64,000 bases of DNA from Ditibartonella apihabitans. Its GTDB lineage: Bacteria > Pseudomonadota > Alphaproteobacteria > Rhizobiales > Rhizobiaceae. The position numbers and the translations under genes were made by a program. Below the pieces are notes generated by a model that worked only from the letters and a program-made list of their open reading frames with translations, had not been told where the DNA came from and searched no databases. Every line of letters begins with the position of its first letter. Within the stretch, counting starts at the first letter, position 1. Of the stretch, positions 37,981-45,012 are shown in pieces. The DNA is taken from positions 620,001-684,000 of the forward strand of contig NZ_CP015820.1 in the NCBI RefSeq assembly GCF_002007485.1. The letters are read 5' to 3'.

Positions 37981-39585
37981 ATGAAAATATTACGGACAAT
38001 TGCGCTGGCAAGCGTATCAGTGGCAAGCCTTGCCACACTTTCTTTGTCGGCAAATGCAAAAACGCTCGTCTACTGTTCCGAGGCTTCGCCTGAGGGATTT
38101 GATCCGGCTGCATATACAACCGGAACAACATTCGATGCCAGTGCGCATACAGTTTATAACGGCCTCGTCGATTTCAAAAAAGGAACAACCGAAGTTATAC
38201 CGGCTCTGGCCGAGAGCTGGGATATTTCACCGGATGGTTTGGAATATACATTTCATTTGAGAAAGGGGGTACATTTCCACAAAACCTCCTATTTTTCGCC
38301 ATCGCGCGACTTTAATGCTGACGATGTCGTCTTTTCGATTGAACGACAGTGGAAGAAAGATCATCCTTGGTACAGCTATGCTCCGGGGCTATCATGGCAA
38401 TATTTTAATAGCATGGGATTTGGAAAACTTCTCAAGGATGTAAAGAAGGTTGATGATCATACAGTCAAAATCACACTGAACCAGCCGGAAGCACCGTTTT
38501 TGGCCGATTTGGCAATGAACTTTATTTCGATCATGTCGAAGGAATATGCGGACAAGCTGCAGGCAGACGGAAAAATGGTCGAGCTCAATGCAAAACCTGT
38601 GGGAACGGGACCATTTATCTTTGTTTCCTATCAAAAGGATGCGGTGATCCGTTATAAGGCAAATCCTGATTATTTTGAAGGCAAACAACCGCTTGATAAT
38701 TTGGTTTTTGCCATCACAACAGACCCGTCAGTGCGTGCACAAAAGCTGAAAGCCGGCGAATGTCAGGTGATATCAAATCCGGCACCGGCTGATGTCGCAG
38801 GATTGAAGGCAAATCCGGATTTGGTTGTAAAAGAGCAACCGGGTCTTAATGTTGCTTATCTTGCTTATAATACTCTTCAACCACCTTTTGATAAGGTTGA
38901 AGTGCGTCAGGCTTTGAATATGGCCATCAATAAGAAGACTATTCTCGAAGCCGTTTACGAAGGGGCAGGCACTCCTGCCAAGACACCGATACCACCCACA
39001 ATGTGGTCCTATAACAAATCCATTGAAGAAGATAATTATAATCCTGAAGCGGCCAAAGCACTACTCGACAAAGCAGGTGTAAAAGACCTGAAAATGAAAA
39101 TTTGGGCAATGCCGGTCAGCCGTCCCTATATGCCAAATGCCCGACGCGCCGCAGAGTTGATGCAGGCCGATTTGGGAAAAATTGGTGTCAAGGTCGAGAT
39201 TGCCACAATGGAATGGGGTGAATATGTCAAACAGTTGCGTGAAAAAGAGCGCGACGGGGCTGTTATAATGGGGTGGACAGGCGATAATGGTGATCCGGAT
39301 AACTTCCTGAGTGTTCTAGCTTCGTGCGCTTCTATTGGGAGCAATAATTATGCAAATTGGTGTTACGAGCCATTTGACAAAATAATTTCGGAAGCAAAAA
39401 AATCGGCAGATCATGAAAAACGCATAGAACTTTATGAACAGGCTCAGGCTATTTTCAAACAGCAGGCTCCTTGGTTTGTCATCGCCAACTCAACGGTGGC
39501 TATGCCAATGTCAAAAAAAGTAAAAAACTATGTTATTGATCCGGTTGGTGCCCACCGCTTCGTTAATGTAGATATAGATGAGTAA
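37981..39585 (+). CDS. dppA: Dipeptide-binding periplasmic protein DppA
   Basis: Periplasmic receptor of the dipeptide (and possibly haem) ABC importer. ATG 37981 follows GAGAGAGGAACC; signal peptide ends at SANA (about 22-25). The mature start KTLVYCSEASPEGFDPAAYT, the ADDVVFSIERQW segment, QAPEAPFLADLAM-like NQPEAPFLADLAMN (about 170), and the C-terminal MPVSRPYMPNARRAAELMQAD, MGWTGDNGDPDNF and WCYEPFDKI blocks match E. coli DppA closely. Length 534 aa is normal. It is the intact one of two adjacent dppA copies and likely the functional receptor for DppBCDF. Confidence 0.93.
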   Translation: MKILRTIALASVSVASLATLSLSANAKTLVYCSEASPEGFDPAAYTTGTTFDASAHTVYNGLVDFKKGTTEVIPALAESWDISPDGLEYTFHLRKGVHFHKTSYFSPSRDFNADDVVFSIERQWKKDHPWYSYAPGLSWQYFNSMGFGKLLKDVKKVDDHTVKITLNQPEAPFLADLAMNFISIMSKEYADKLQADGKMVELNAKPVGTGPFIFVSYQKDAVIRYKANPDYFEGKQPLDNLVFAITTDPSVRAQKLKAGECQVISNPAPADVAGLKANPDLVVKEQPGLNVAYLAYNTLQPPFDKVEVRQALNMAINKKTILEAVYEGAGTPAKTPIPPTMWSYNKSIEEDNYNPEAAKALLDKAGVKDLKMKIWAMPVSRPYMPNARRAAELMQADLGKIGVKVEIATMEWGEYVKQLREKERDGAVIMGWTGDNGDPDNFLSVLASCASIGSNNYANWCYEPFDKIISEAKKSADHEKRIELYEQAQAIFKQQAPWFVIANSTVAMPMSKKVKNYVIDPVGAHRFVNVDIDE

Positions 39586-39732
39586 TAGAAGCTTTATATT
39601 GGCCATAGACATAAAAACTATGGTCAATATAAACTTGAATATAACAAAGGTTTGTCTTTTTGTTCCAATATTTTAAACATGTGTAACAATCAGACTCAAA
39701 TAAACGTTTTATAGAATAATATAGGGGAAACC

Positions 39733-41335
39733 ATGAAATTACTGAAAGAGTTCGTATTCTCTGTTGGAGTAGCAACAGCATTTTTTGCAATTTCCAATGA
39801 AGCGTCGGCAAAAAATCTGGTTTATTGTTCGGAAGCATCTCCGGAGGGGTTCGACCCCGCGCTTTATTCAAACGGAACAGCATTTGATGCATCTGCATGG
39901 GCTGTCTATAACCGGCTGGTAGAATTTGATCCGGATAAACCGGGCGTTTTCCCGGGGCTTGCTGAAAGCTGGCAAATATCCGATGACGGGAAAGAATACA
40001 CTTTCCACTTGCGGAAAAATGTAAAATTCCAAAAGACTGCTTTTTTCACTCCCACGCGAACATTGAATGCGGATGATGTGATTTTTACTTTCGAGCGCGC
40101 TAAAAATCCGGACAGTCCTTGGCATGCCTATACGTCCGGCATTCGCTATCAGTATTTTGAAAGTATGGGGTTTAGAACGCTCATCAAGGATATCGTGAAA
40201 GTCGATGACCAAACAGTCAAATTCATTCTTGACCGACCGGATGCTCCCTTTCTTGCCGATCTCGCTATGCCATTTTTGTCGATTAATTCGCTAGAATATG
40301 CGCAACAATTGGAAAAGCAGGGAAAACGGGAACAGTTCAATCTTCAACCGGTTGGAACTGGCCCATTTACTTTTGTCACATATCAAAAAGATGCACTGAT
40401 ACGCTATAAGGCAAATAGTGATTATTATGCGGGAAAGCCGAAGATAGACAATCTTGTTTTTTCGATCACGACAGATCCGGCCGTTCGCGCACAAAAGCTG
40501 AAGGCCGGCGAATGTGATATCATGTCTTATCCGGCTCCTGCCGATATTGGTGAATTGAAATCGAATCCGGATTTGAAAGTTGTCGAGCGACCGGGATTGA
40601 ATATCGGCTATATGGCTTACAATACGACAGTGCCTCCCTTTGACAATGTTAATGTAAGACGCGCACTCAATATGGCGGTCAATAAAAGGCCATTATTGAT
40701 GCCGTTTTTGATGGTTCGGCAACAGTCGCAAAAATCCGATGCCACCGACAATGTGGGGTTACAATGACAATGTCAAGGATGATGCATATGATCCGGAGAA
40801 AGCCAAACAGATGTTGGAAGCTGCCGGTATCAAGAACTTCAAAATGAAGATTTGGGCAATGCCGATAAGTCGGCCTTATATGCCTAACGCACGACGCGCT
40901 GCCGAGCTTATTCAATCCGATTTCAAAAAAGTTGGTGTAGAGGCCGAAATTGTCTCTATGGAATGGGGTGAATATATGAAAGCGGGTAAAGCAAGGGATC
41001 GAGACGGTGCCATTATTATCGGCTGGACAGGCGATAATGGTGATCCTGATAACTTCCTTGGTGTTCTGCTTTCATGCATTGGAATAGGGACTACGAATTA
41101 TGCGAATTGGTGCAGTAAGCCGTTCGATGATCTCATTGAAAAGGGTAGGACTGTCACCGACCAGCAAGAGCGGACGAAACTTTACGAACAAGCCCAACTG
41201 ATATTCAAAGAACAGGCTCCCTGGCTGACGCTCGATCATTCAACCGTATTTATGCCAATGAGAAAGAACGTAACCGGCTTCAAACTCTATTCGGTAGCGG
41301 GCTATCGTTTTGAACATGTCGATATCGAAAAATAA
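39733..41335 (+). pseudogene. dppA: Second dppA copy, broken by two frameshifts
   Basis: Reads as a full-length DppA (signal peptide MKLLKEFVFSVGVATAFFAI, NLVYCSEASPEGFDPALYS onward) but in three frames. Frame 1 runs from 39733 to about 40686; after AATAAAA the family sequence (AIIDAVFDGSATVAK) continues one base early; after GCAAAAAT at about 40735 it shifts again, into the frame PMPPTMWGYNDN that runs to 41335. Both breaks are single-base losses at A-runs 45 bases apart, within a stretch where copy 1 reads NKKTILEAVYEG. Either the copy is a recent pseudogene or these are homopolymer sequencing errors; the rest is intact with good conservation, which favours recent loss or error. GGGGAAACC precedes ATG 39733. 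Confidence 0.85.
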
Positions 41336-41397: not shown

Positions 41398-42417
41398 ATG
41401 CTTCAATATTTGTTGAAAAAAATAGGTTATATCATTCCTACTTTTCTAGGAATTACGCTTGTTTCTTTCATTTTTGTACATACCTTGCCGGGTGATCCTG
41501 TGCTTTTGTTGGCAGGTGACCGTGGCATCTCAGAAGAACGCCATGCCGAACTGATGACCGAATTCGGCTTCGATCGTCCTTATTGGCAACAATATCTCGA
41601 TTATTTGTGGGGTGTTCTTCATGGCAATCTGGGCACTTCTTTCGTTTCCAAACAAAGCGTAGCCGAAGAGTTCTTTACACTTTTTCCGGCGACGCTGGAA
41701 TTGACATTTTGTGCCATTACTATTGCTATATTTCTTGGAATTGTTGTTGGCGTTATTGCTTCCGTCAAACGTGGCTCGTGGTTTGACCAGACTTCAATGG
41801 GATTGGCTCTTACAGGCTATTCTATGCCAATTTTCTGGTGGGGCCTTTTGCTGATCATGCTCTTTAGTGGAAAATTGGGTTGGACGCCGGTTTCAGGGCG
41901 GATTTCTCTACTCTATTATTTCGATCAACCCACCGGTTTTATGCTGATTGATAGCTGGCTATCGGGTGAGGAGGGGGCTTTTGCCTCTGCCGTTTCCCAC
42001 CTGATTTTACCGACATTGGTTTTGGCAACGGTTCCTCTCGCAGTGATCGCTCGCCAAACGCGTTCGGCCATGCTCGAAGTTTTGAATGAAGACTATGTTC
42101 GCACAGCAAAAGCAAAAGGCTTGAGCACTTTTCGTGTCGTTGCAATTCATGCATTGCGTAACGCCTTTATTCCGATTGTAACAACAATCGGTTTGCAGAT
42201 CGGAATGTTGATGGGCGGGGCAATTCTTACCGAGACAATTTTTTCTTGGCCGGGAATTGGAAAGTGGATGATCGATTCAATTTCGAGAAGAGATTACGAA
42301 GCTGTACAGGGTGGATTACTCATAGTTGCTATGCTCGTGATGGTGGTCAATCTCGTCGTCGATTTGCTTTATGGATTTATCAATCCGAGGGTCAGACATA
42401 GCCAGGGTGTATCGTAA
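41398..42417 (+). CDS. dppB: Dipeptide ABC transporter permease DppB
   Basis: Inner-membrane permease subunit of the dipeptide importer, pairing with DppC. Six predicted segments, N-terminal segment IIPTFLGITLVSFIFVHTLPGDP (about 12-34), and the EAA-type loop YVRTAKAKGLSTFRVVAIHALRNAFIPI (about 232-259) that docks the ATPases. 339 aa is normal. GGAGGCAATATG provides the ribosome site. The stop overlaps the dppC start (TAATG). Confidence 0.95.
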   Translation: MLQYLLKKIGYIIPTFLGITLVSFIFVHTLPGDPVLLLAGDRGISEERHAELMTEFGFDRPYWQQYLDYLWGVLHGNLGTSFVSKQSVAEEFFTLFPATLELTFCAITIAIFLGIVVGVIASVKRGSWFDQTSMGLALTGYSMPIFWWGLLLIMLFSGKLGWTPVSGRISLLYYFDQPTGFMLIDSWLSGEEGAFASAVSHLILPTLVLATVPLAVIARQTRSAMLEVLNEDYVRTAKAKGLSTFRVVAIHALRNAFIPIVTTIGLQIGMLMGGAILTETIFSWPGIGKWMIDSISRRDYEAVQGGLLIVAMLVMVVNLVVDLLYGFINPRVRHSQGVS

Positions 42418-43319
42418 TGAATAGTAAAGCTGACAGAAATATATCGGCCGATATCCGACGTCAGGCTTGGCGCGAATTCTGGTTCTCTTTCAGTATGAAT
42501 CGTGGCGCTGTGATGGGGCTTGTCGTATTTTGTGCTATTGTCCTTCTTGCAGTCCTTGCGCCGTTGATTGCTCCTTATGGATATGACGAGCAGTTTCGTG
42601 ATGCAATGCAAAGACCACCGGCTTGGCAAACAGGCGGAACATGGAATTTTATTCTGGGAACTGATGCGGTTGGACGTGATATTTTATCTCGCCTCCTCCA
42701 TGGTGCGCGCTATTCACTGCTTGTGGGAGTAGTTGTTTCCCTTGCAGCTATGATCGTCGGTATCGTCGTCGGCGTTATTGCCGGTTATATAGGAGGCATG
42801 ATTGAAGTCATCATCATGCGTATTATGGATATCATCCTTGCATTTCCTTCGCTCCTTCTGGCTTTGGTGCTCGTGAGTATCGTCGGTTATGGTTTGCAAG
42901 GTGCAATTATTGCAACGGCGGTTGCGCTCCAGCCGCATTTTGTCCGCCTTGCACGCGCTGCAGTCCTTTCGGAAAAAAATCGTGAATATGTCATTGCCGC
43001 AAAACTTGCAGGTGCTGGCCGCGGTCGTTTGATGTTCAAGACCATTCTCCCGAATTGTATGGCTCCCATTATCGTACAGGGAACGTTTTCTTTTTCGAAT
43101 GCCATTCTTGATGTAGCTGCCTTGGGGTTCCTTGGTATGGGGGCGCAAGCGCCCACACCGGAATGGGGAACAATGTTGGCCGATGCGCGTGAATTTATTT
43201 CAAGCGCATGGTGGATTGTTACATTTCCCGGTCTTGCAATATTGGTACTTGTTTTGGCAATCAACCTCATGGGGGATGGCTTACGTGACGCACTCGATCC
43301 GAAATTGAAAAGGAGCTGA
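42417..43319 (+). CDS. dppC: Dipeptide ABC transporter permease DppC
   Basis: Second permease of the importer. Family marks: LAPLIAPYGYDEQFRDAM (about 41-58), LGTDAVGRDILSRLLHGARYSLLVG (about 79-103), and the EAA loop YVIAAKLAGAGRGRLMFKTILPNCMAPI (about 189-216). 300 aa is the usual length. Start overlaps the dppB stop by one base, and dppD begins 2 bases after its stop. Confidence 0.95.
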   Translation: MNSKADRNISADIRRQAWREFWFSFSMNRGAVMGLVVFCAIVLLAVLAPLIAPYGYDEQFRDAMQRPPAWQTGGTWNFILGTDAVGRDILSRLLHGARYSLLVGVVVSLAAMIVGIVVGVIAGYIGGMIEVIIMRIMDIILAFPSLLLALVLVSIVGYGLQGAIIATAVALQPHFVRLARAAVLSEKNREYVIAAKLAGAGRGRLMFKTILPNCMAPIIVQGTFSFSNAILDVAALGFLGMGAQAPTPEWGTMLADAREFISSAWWIVTFPGLAILVLVLAINLMGDGLRDALDPKLKRS

Positions 43320-43321
43320 AG

Positions 43322-44164
43322 ATGGCGTTACTCGAAATCCGTAATCTTAGTGTATATTTCGAAACCGCAAGCGGGCCTTTTTATGCAGTCAAAGGCATAG
43401 ACATCACCGTAAATGATGGCGAAATACTTGCAATTGTTGGTGAATCCGGCTCCGGTAAATCGGTGAGCATGTTGGCTGTCATGGGGCTATTGCCAAAAAG
43501 TGCCAAGATTAGTGCCGACAAGATGATGTTTGGAAATATCGATCTTATGAAGCTTACCGATCATGAAAGACGCCGGATCATCGGCAATGAAATTTCAATG
43601 ATTTTTCAGGAACCGATAGCAAGCCTCAATCCCTGTTTTACAGTAGGTTATCAGCTTGAAGAAGTACTGAAAGCCCATCTTAAGCTCGGTCGTAAACAAC
43701 GGATTGAGAAAATTATCGAACTGTTCCACCTTGTCGGGTTGACCGAGCCCGAACGCAGATTGAAGAGTTTTCCTCATCAATTATCCGGCGGTCAATGCCA
43801 ACGAATTATGATTGCCATGGCAATTGCATGTAACCCGAAATTACTGATTGCCGACGAGCCGACAACTGCACTTGACGTTACTATACAGAAGCAGATTCTC
43901 GATCTTATTTTGGATCTCCAAAAAAGCCAGAATATGGGCGTTATTCTTATCACCCATGATATGGGCGTTGTTGCTGAAACGGCAGATCGCGTTGTGGTGC
44001 AGTATAAGGGAGAAAAAATGGAAGAGGCCGACGTGCTTTCCTTGTTCGAAACGCCAAAAAATGCCTATACCAAAGCTCTTCTGGCAGCCCTTCCGGAAAA
44101 TGCCCATGGCAATCGACTTGTAACGGTTGCAGATTTTATGCACACGCACGGAGATGCTTTATGA
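43322..44164 (+). CDS. dppD: Dipeptide ABC transporter ATP-binding protein DppD
   Basis: One of two ATPases energising the importer. Walker A GESGSGKS (about 40-47), Q-loop FQEP, signature [16 protein letters not shown] (about 155-170), Walker [13 protein letters not shown] (about 176-187), H-loop THDMG. At 280 aa it is about 45 residues shorter than E. coli DppD because the C-terminal oligopeptide-type tail with cysteines is missing; the core is complete. Ends with a 4-base overlap into dppF. Confidence 0.93.
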
Positions 44165-45012
44165 GCGATTTCATAATAGAAGCTAAAGATATCGTACGTG
44201 ATTATCCCATTTCCGGCGGTTTGCTCGGAAAAAGAAAAATTTTACATGCTGTCAATCATGTTTCGTTTGGTGTCGAACGTGGAAAAACCTTGGCTGTCGT
44301 CGGCGAATCCGGATGCGGAAAATCGACTTTAGCCCGGATTCTGAGCCTGATTGATCCGCAAACGAGCGGCGAGCTCGTCATTGACGGGGAAAATATTGAT
44401 ATTGCGCAAAAAAAAGTAACAACAACGATGCGCCGGAAGGTGCAGATCGTATTTCAAAATCCTTATGGATCACTCAATCCCAGACAAAAAATCGGCGATG
44501 CTCTCACCGAACCCTTATTGTTGAACACAACATTGTCGGCCAAAGAACGTGAGCAGCAAGCAAAGCAAATGCTCGAGAGAGTGGGGCTTTCGGAAATACA
44601 TTACTATCGATATCCTCATATGTTTTCAGGTGGTCAGAGGCAGCGCATTGCAATTGCGCGTTCTTTAATGCTTCGCCCGAAAATAGTTGTTCTTGACGAG
44701 CCGGTTTCAGCGCTTGATTTGTCCGTTCAGGCTCAGGTGCTCAATTTGCTTGCCGATCTACAGGAGGAATTCGGCCTTACATATGTTTTTATCAGTCACG
44801 ATCTGTCGGTCGTGCGCTATATCGCCAACACAGTCATGGTCATGTATTTTGGGGAAATTGTCGAATATGGCACAAGAGACAGAATTTTTTCCCATCCCGA
44901 GCATGATTATACTAAAAAACTTTTTGCAGCCACACCAATAGCCAGTGTAGAGGCTATACGTGCACGAATTGAAAAGAAAAATAATGTTCAAAACGCTATT
45001 AATTCATTTTGA
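44161..45012 (+). CDS. dppF: Dipeptide ABC transporter ATP-binding protein DppF
   Basis: Second ATPase of the importer. Walker A GESGCGKST (about 48-56), Q-loop FQNPYGSLNPRQ, signature FSGGQRQRIAIARSLM (about 157-172), Walker B IVVLDEPVSALD (about 178-189), H-loop SHDLS. 283 aa; the C-terminal tail is short compared with E. coli DppF (no second half of the oligo_HPY region). The ATGA overlap with dppD implies translational coupling. The last gene of the operon, followed by AT-rich DNA. Confidence 0.93.
   Translation: MSDFIIEAKDIVRDYPISGGLLGKRKILHAVNHVSFGVERGKTLAVVGESGCGKSTLARILSLIDPQTSGELVIDGENIDIAQKKVTTTMRRKVQIVFQNPYGSLNPRQKIGDALTEPLLLNTTLSAKEREQQAKQMLERVGLSEIHYYRYPHMFSGGQRQRIAIARSLMLRPKIVVLDEPVSALDLSVQAQVLNLLADLQEEFGLTYVFISHDLSVVRYIANTVMVMYFGEIVEYGTRDRIFSHPEHDYTKKLFAATPIASVEAIRARIEKKNNVQNAINSF

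Follow-up and report, generated by a model that had tools for sequence, protein, structure and literature searches.

An apparent double frameshift in the second receptor gene of a dpp-type transporter operon of Ditibartonella apihabitans, very probably a pair of assembly errors

Results

Organization of the locus

The window analyzed here is a stretch of 64,000 nucleotides (positions 620,001 to 684,000 of contig NZ_CP015820.1) from the 2.60-Mb single-contig genome of Ditibartonella apihabitans. Its nearest named relative among the genomes compared is Bartonella sp. M0177, with a mean DNA identity of 94.8% over 218 aligned ORFs. M0177 is also the closest hit of the honey-bee isolate B. apihabitans K-FP28 (PMC10868161), and we therefore assign the window to the Bartonella group of the honey-bee gut. 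In the current NCBI taxonomy, Bartonella apis has become Ditibartonella apis; deletion of genes is reported for its laboratory strain PEB0150 (PMC11389375).

Genes encoding an aldehyde dehydrogenase and an M24 peptidase are followed, in this order, by dppA1, dppA2, dppB, dppC, dppD, and dppF (Table 1). As expected of a Dpp operon, the receptor precedes two permeases and two ATPases (together 41398-45012) on a single strand. The locus as such is an ordinary peptide transporter operon with tandem receptors.

Table 1. Features of the dpp-type locus, in window coordinates, with model scores and cut-offs in bits.
Feature	Position	Strand	Family match
dppA1, intact, 534 aa from the ATG at 37981; solute-binding protein of family 5	37981..39585	+	PF00496; DppA_dipep NF043070 695.5, curated cut-off 1005
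Intergenic hairpin (dppA1-dppA2) with inner pairs conserved in five genomes	39589..39636	+	
dppA2, first ORF, 344 aa; family sequence until about 40683-40698, out of frame after	39733..40767	+	
Segment bounded by the two one-base deletions, each in an A-run	40684..40730	+	
dppA2, last ORF, 198 aa; remaining family sequence, different frame	40739..41335	+	
dppB-type permease	41398..42417	+	PF00528; PRK10914 503, cut-off 590
dppC-type permease	42417..43319	+	PRK10913 422, cut-off 483
dppD-type ATPase	43322..44164	+	PRK11022 352, cut-off 541
dppF-type ATPase	44161..45012	+	PRK11308 420, exceeds cut-off 408

Both receptor genes pass the PF00496 gathering cut-off of 32.4 bits (350 for dppA1, 233 and 73 for the two pieces of dppA2), while neither dppA1 nor the dppA2 pieces (397 and 257 bits) reach the cut-off of the NCBIfam DppA equivalog. 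Likewise, three of the four transporter subunits score below the cut-off of their own best Dpp model. We therefore use 'dppA' as a nearest-family label, the family match not fixing dipeptide or heme as the ligand. An intact dppA2 product would be a periplasmic peptide-type binding protein of family 5, encoded by a second receptor gene upstream of the dppBCDF-type permease; gene order suggests that both receptors serve this one permease.

The 147-nt spacer between dppA1 and dppA2 contains a strong hairpin (folding z = -3.2). Across five genomes the inner stem is conserved and two of its pairs have changed on both sides; over the alignment as a whole, however, covariation contributes an unfavourable term (+0.24). 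The hairpin is possibly an mRNA-stabilising or partial-terminator element behind the first receptor gene. A search of the window against Rfam at gathering thresholds gave no match.

Two single-base deletions in dppA2

Translated in all three frames and aligned at the DNA level with the intact copy at 37981-39585, dppA2 (39733-41335) shows a family sequence that runs through three frames, as the initial annotation of this DNA had proposed. The ORFs 39733-40767 and 40739-41335 occupy different frames and cover positions 7-323 and 338-535, respectively, of the 535-position NCBIfam DppA model. Because these are consecutive stretches of one model, the two ORFs represent one gene and not a chance arrangement.

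The window dppA2 was aligned with nine other sequences, namely four dppA2 orthologues, the window dppA1, three dppA1 orthologues, and one copy from genome G003. It shows exactly two gaps of one base each, at alignment columns 952 and 999, 47 columns apart; the remaining nine rows have no gap at these columns or elsewhere. Both gaps fall in A-runs, which the record gives as 4 and 5 bases long; in the four orthologues each run has one base more. This bears out the initial annotation, which had described dppA2 as broken by two one-base deletions at A-runs; its coordinates and its spacing of 45 bases, equivalent to the 47 columns given here, are also right. The four orthologues examined, from M0177, MAG L011 (same contig as in G018), MAG L012, and G007, are all intact, being open across 534 codons from the aligned start. 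No further decay was detected in the window copy, either as an additional gap in the alignment or as an in-frame stop in the pieces upon three-frame translation.

Age of the receptor pair

In a protein tree of 37 rows, dppA1 and dppA2 fall into separate groups, each with full support, and the two tandem copies from G003 are placed as sisters to dppA2. The dppA1/dppA2 split therefore predates the compared species, and the lineage has kept its second receptor for a long time. Matches at E < 1e-100 were obtained in 3 of 36 genomes of the same genus searched (G003, G007, and G018). The tandem receptor pair of G003 (G003:C1:2025979-2029385), both members of which are dppA2 sisters without a dppA1-type copy in the tree, is apparently a separate, later duplication.

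Selection on dppA2

Pairwise dN/dS of the window dppA2 is 0.15 against the M0177 copy and 0.09-0.13 against the remaining three orthologues. On the window branch, private non-synonymous to synonymous changes number 19:15 in dppA2 versus 23:101 in nine neighbouring genes (four taxa; Fisher p 3.5e-5). A similar rise is seen in the intact copy of M0177 (L010:6001-7605; 11:17 versus 11:146, p 3.3e-5), so that the raised non-synonymous share is independent of the break. No significant rise was found in G007 (11:22 versus 80:196) or MAG L012 (17:73 versus 184:594).

The site-by-site list of changes has two entries at some codons, and the comparison with outgroups was recounted by residue. Eighteen of the 20 residues private to the window copy are present among 73 outgroup sequences, where random missense changes would give 32%, and just one lies at a site conserved to at least 95% (random expectation 27%). 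Intact copies behave similarly, with 7/8 private residues found in outgroups for M0177, 12/16 for L012, 3/3 for G007, and 1/2 for L011. At 13 of the 20 positions, the private residue is the commoner outgroup state, and these may therefore not be new changes; they hint at recombination or reversal in dppA2. Relaxed selection after loss was considered as the cause of the raised share and set aside, given that intact M0177 is alike and that most of the private residues are those that prevail in outgroups. The missense changes are those of a working protein. Until the breaks, dppA2 behaved as a working gene; if real, the breaks can only be very young.

Frequency of interrupted genes relative to M0177

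Three stretches of the window genome, 564 kb in all, were compared with M0177. For M0177 ORFs of at least 100 aa with a match at 75% identity or more, we determined whether a single in-frame piece covered at least 90% in the window genome; ORFs whose best piece covered less were termed partial, and only these were flagged. Around the window (540-744 kb; 204 kb), 4 of 166 matched ORFs are partial. dppA2 is the sole clear frameshift; the other three comprise a gene truncated by the edge of the sample and two ORFs of 100 and 113 aa that, being short, we judge to be non-genes. A raised density of errors near dppA2 was accordingly not found in these 204 kb. At 2.00-2.16 Mb (160 kb), 2 of 85 are partial, one gene at the edge and one ORF made of 33-base repeats with one-base losses. 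At 1.2-1.4 Mb, on the other hand, truncation affects 14 of the 131 ORFs with a match, although the two shortest (126 and 116 aa) are possibly not genes as drawn. In the reverse control, with ORFs of the window genome sought in M0177, partial matches amount to 5/170, 4/87, and 9/136 in the three stretches, respectively, and are mostly short ORFs or counterparts of broken genes. One case runs the other way: a 205-aa ORF near 1246557 of the window genome spans two frames in M0177 (1239054-1239669).

At the DNA level, gaps whose length is not divisible by three occur in 34 of 218 ORFs from the first two stretches; on visual inspection, most of them sit at the starts or ends of over-long ORFs or cancel nearby. 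Within ORFs of the same 364 kb, five-base A-runs are the same in 609 cases, shorter in 2, and substituted in 87; for six-base A-runs the counts are 194, 1, and 51. The 33-base-repeat ORF, of about 144 codons with LKRDL-type 11-residue repeats (M0177 L157:2919-3353; window genome 2050098-2050553), is nearly identical in DNA between the two genomes despite diverged flanks, and was also found in G007 and G018 among six genomes searched.

Broken essential genes at 1.2-1.4 Mb

DNA alignment of the 14 cut ORFs with M0177 reveals 21 one-base deletions on the side of the window genome, at least one per ORF, and no one-base insertions; Tmk also carries a 2-base deletion and a 2-base insertion that cancel each other. 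As read from the alignment, 10 of the deletions lie in runs of at least four equal bases and 5 in shorter runs (two or three bases), the other 6 being elsewhere or at unclear positions. Ten of the 14 ORFs were compared with NCBIfam. Curated cut-offs are passed for O-acetylhomoserine aminocarboxypropyltransferase, dTMP kinase, a hexose kinase, HisI, RbbA, ThrS, dGTPase, and ArgS, while a glycosyltransferase and an exopolyphosphatase stay below their own.

ThrS (1379420-1381396) has three breaks, lying in runs of two or three bases, and ArgS has two. Searches of the window genome for a second intact ThrS, ArgS, or Tmk returned only split copies, together with two weak partial relatives of ThrS (26% and 29% identity). 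A growing bacterium requires ThrS and ArgS, and these breaks can therefore not all be real. As the sole copies detected of ThrS, ArgS, and thymidylate kinase are broken in a cell that needs them, the assembly must carry one-base deletion errors, some of them closely paired. The type of break seen in dppA2 is thus found in genes that have to work, and the assembly is unreliable at 1.2-1.4 Mb.

Distribution of one-base gaps

Isolated one-base gaps in ORF interiors show deletion-to-insertion ratios of 4:4, 9:6, and 23:4 in the first (540-744 kb), second (2.00-2.16 Mb), and third (1.2-1.4 Mb) stretch, respectively, indicating that the excess of coding deletions is regional; the corresponding non-coding ratios are 108:87, 69:51, and 117:76, so that non-coding DNA of the third stretch is tilted towards deletions as well. 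Moreover, deletions in the third stretch occur in close pairs, 4 neighbour distances among 22 positions being below 350 bases (P = 0.0075 under uniform placement). These positions are the isolated-gap deletions minus three near insertions (1314466, 1314603, and 1323108), plus two from the ORF comparison. The dppA2 pair, 47 columns apart, fits this pattern. The probability of two random points in 203.5 kb falling this close is 0.0005, so the pair is unlikely to represent two independent random errors, and one bad patch must be assumed.

Discussion

The deletions in dppA2 are present in the record and absent from four orthologues, and one-base deletions occur elsewhere in needed single-copy genes of the same record. 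We consider it very probable that the double frameshift consists of paired assembly errors in an intact gene. The assembly would have lost one base in each of two A-runs within a short, poorly called patch, and the deletions would share their cause with those in the needed single-copy genes. The organism itself probably retains an intact dppA2, like the four orthologues examined. Of the two readings offered by the initial annotation, paired homopolymer errors are thereby the better supported, given the one-base deletions in the sole ThrS, ArgS, and Tmk genes detected, while the loss of one of the receptors by the strain finds no support.

The only serious rival is a real, very recent pseudogene, with two slippage deletions having deprived this strain of one of its two tandem receptors. 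The neighbourhood is otherwise clean, without another clear frameshift in 204 kb, and two of the four coding deletions in this stretch, where deletions and insertions are balanced, are those of dppA2 itself; the local error rate is therefore low, which argues against an artefact, as does the unchanged length of most five- and six-base A-runs in ORFs across 364 kb. In addition, the intact neighbouring paralogue could render dppA2 dispensable, and the raised non-synonymous share on the window and M0177 branches relative to other genes could mean relaxed constraint. A real pseudogene was in fact favoured by the 204-kb and 160-kb stretches, where no known gene other than dppA2 has a clear frameshift, and this was overturned by the third, in which essential single-copy genes of the same chromosome record are broken likewise. 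The missense changes of functional type, the lack of any further gap or of in-frame stops in the pieces, and the four intact orthologues also speak against it, and overall we regard it as improbable. It would imply a strain-specific loss, caught before further decay in a lineage of bee-gut bacteria that conserves the tandem receptors, possibly after a relaxation of constraint seen in M0177 too; this scenario is equally unlikely.

Two further explanations carry very little weight. The breaks might be real and bridged by transcriptional slippage or ribosomal frameshifting, yielding the full protein, and both do lie within A-runs. However, runs of 4 and 5 bases are short for slippage, two events would be required per protein, and runs of two or three bases hold several other breaks of this record, the three in ThrS among them, making bridging highly implausible. 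The idea of two independent functional genes, one for a 344-aa receptor and one for a 198-aa protein, is scarcely credible either, for although the second ORF happens to begin with ATG, the two pieces match successive parts of a single 535-position family and form a single joined ORF in the examined orthologues. Confusion of reads between the receptor copies, also considered, is unlikely, dppA1 and dppA2 being 64% identical in DNA.

The consequences extend beyond this locus: counts of pseudogenes or gene losses taken from this assembly would be wrong, since core genes, ThrS and ArgS among them, likewise appear broken in it.

Comparison with known systems

dppA1 matches the dipeptide-binding protein DppA (PDB 1dpp) over its mature length (E 7e-189) and the heme-binding protein HbpA (PDB 3m8u and 3tpa) at E 1e-158 and 3e-149. 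PDB 1dpp and 1dpe are Escherichia coli DppA. As in the DppA system, a dppBCDF-type transporter lies downstream of the receptor; unlike it, the locus has two tandem receptor genes, which score under the NCBIfam DppA equivalog cut-off.

The breaks resemble the indel errors of long-read assemblies in that conserved genes are split by one-base deletions, mostly in runs of equal bases, but differ in being regional. A nanopore assembly of the honey-bee isolate Bartonella apihabitans K-FP28, whose closest match is given as M0177, is described as having 206 frame-shifted genes among 246 pseudogenes (PMC10868161). We would suggest, as that source does not, that these are largely errors as well. Tools that correct frame-breaking indels in long-read assemblies are described (PMC12007338, PMC8011154).
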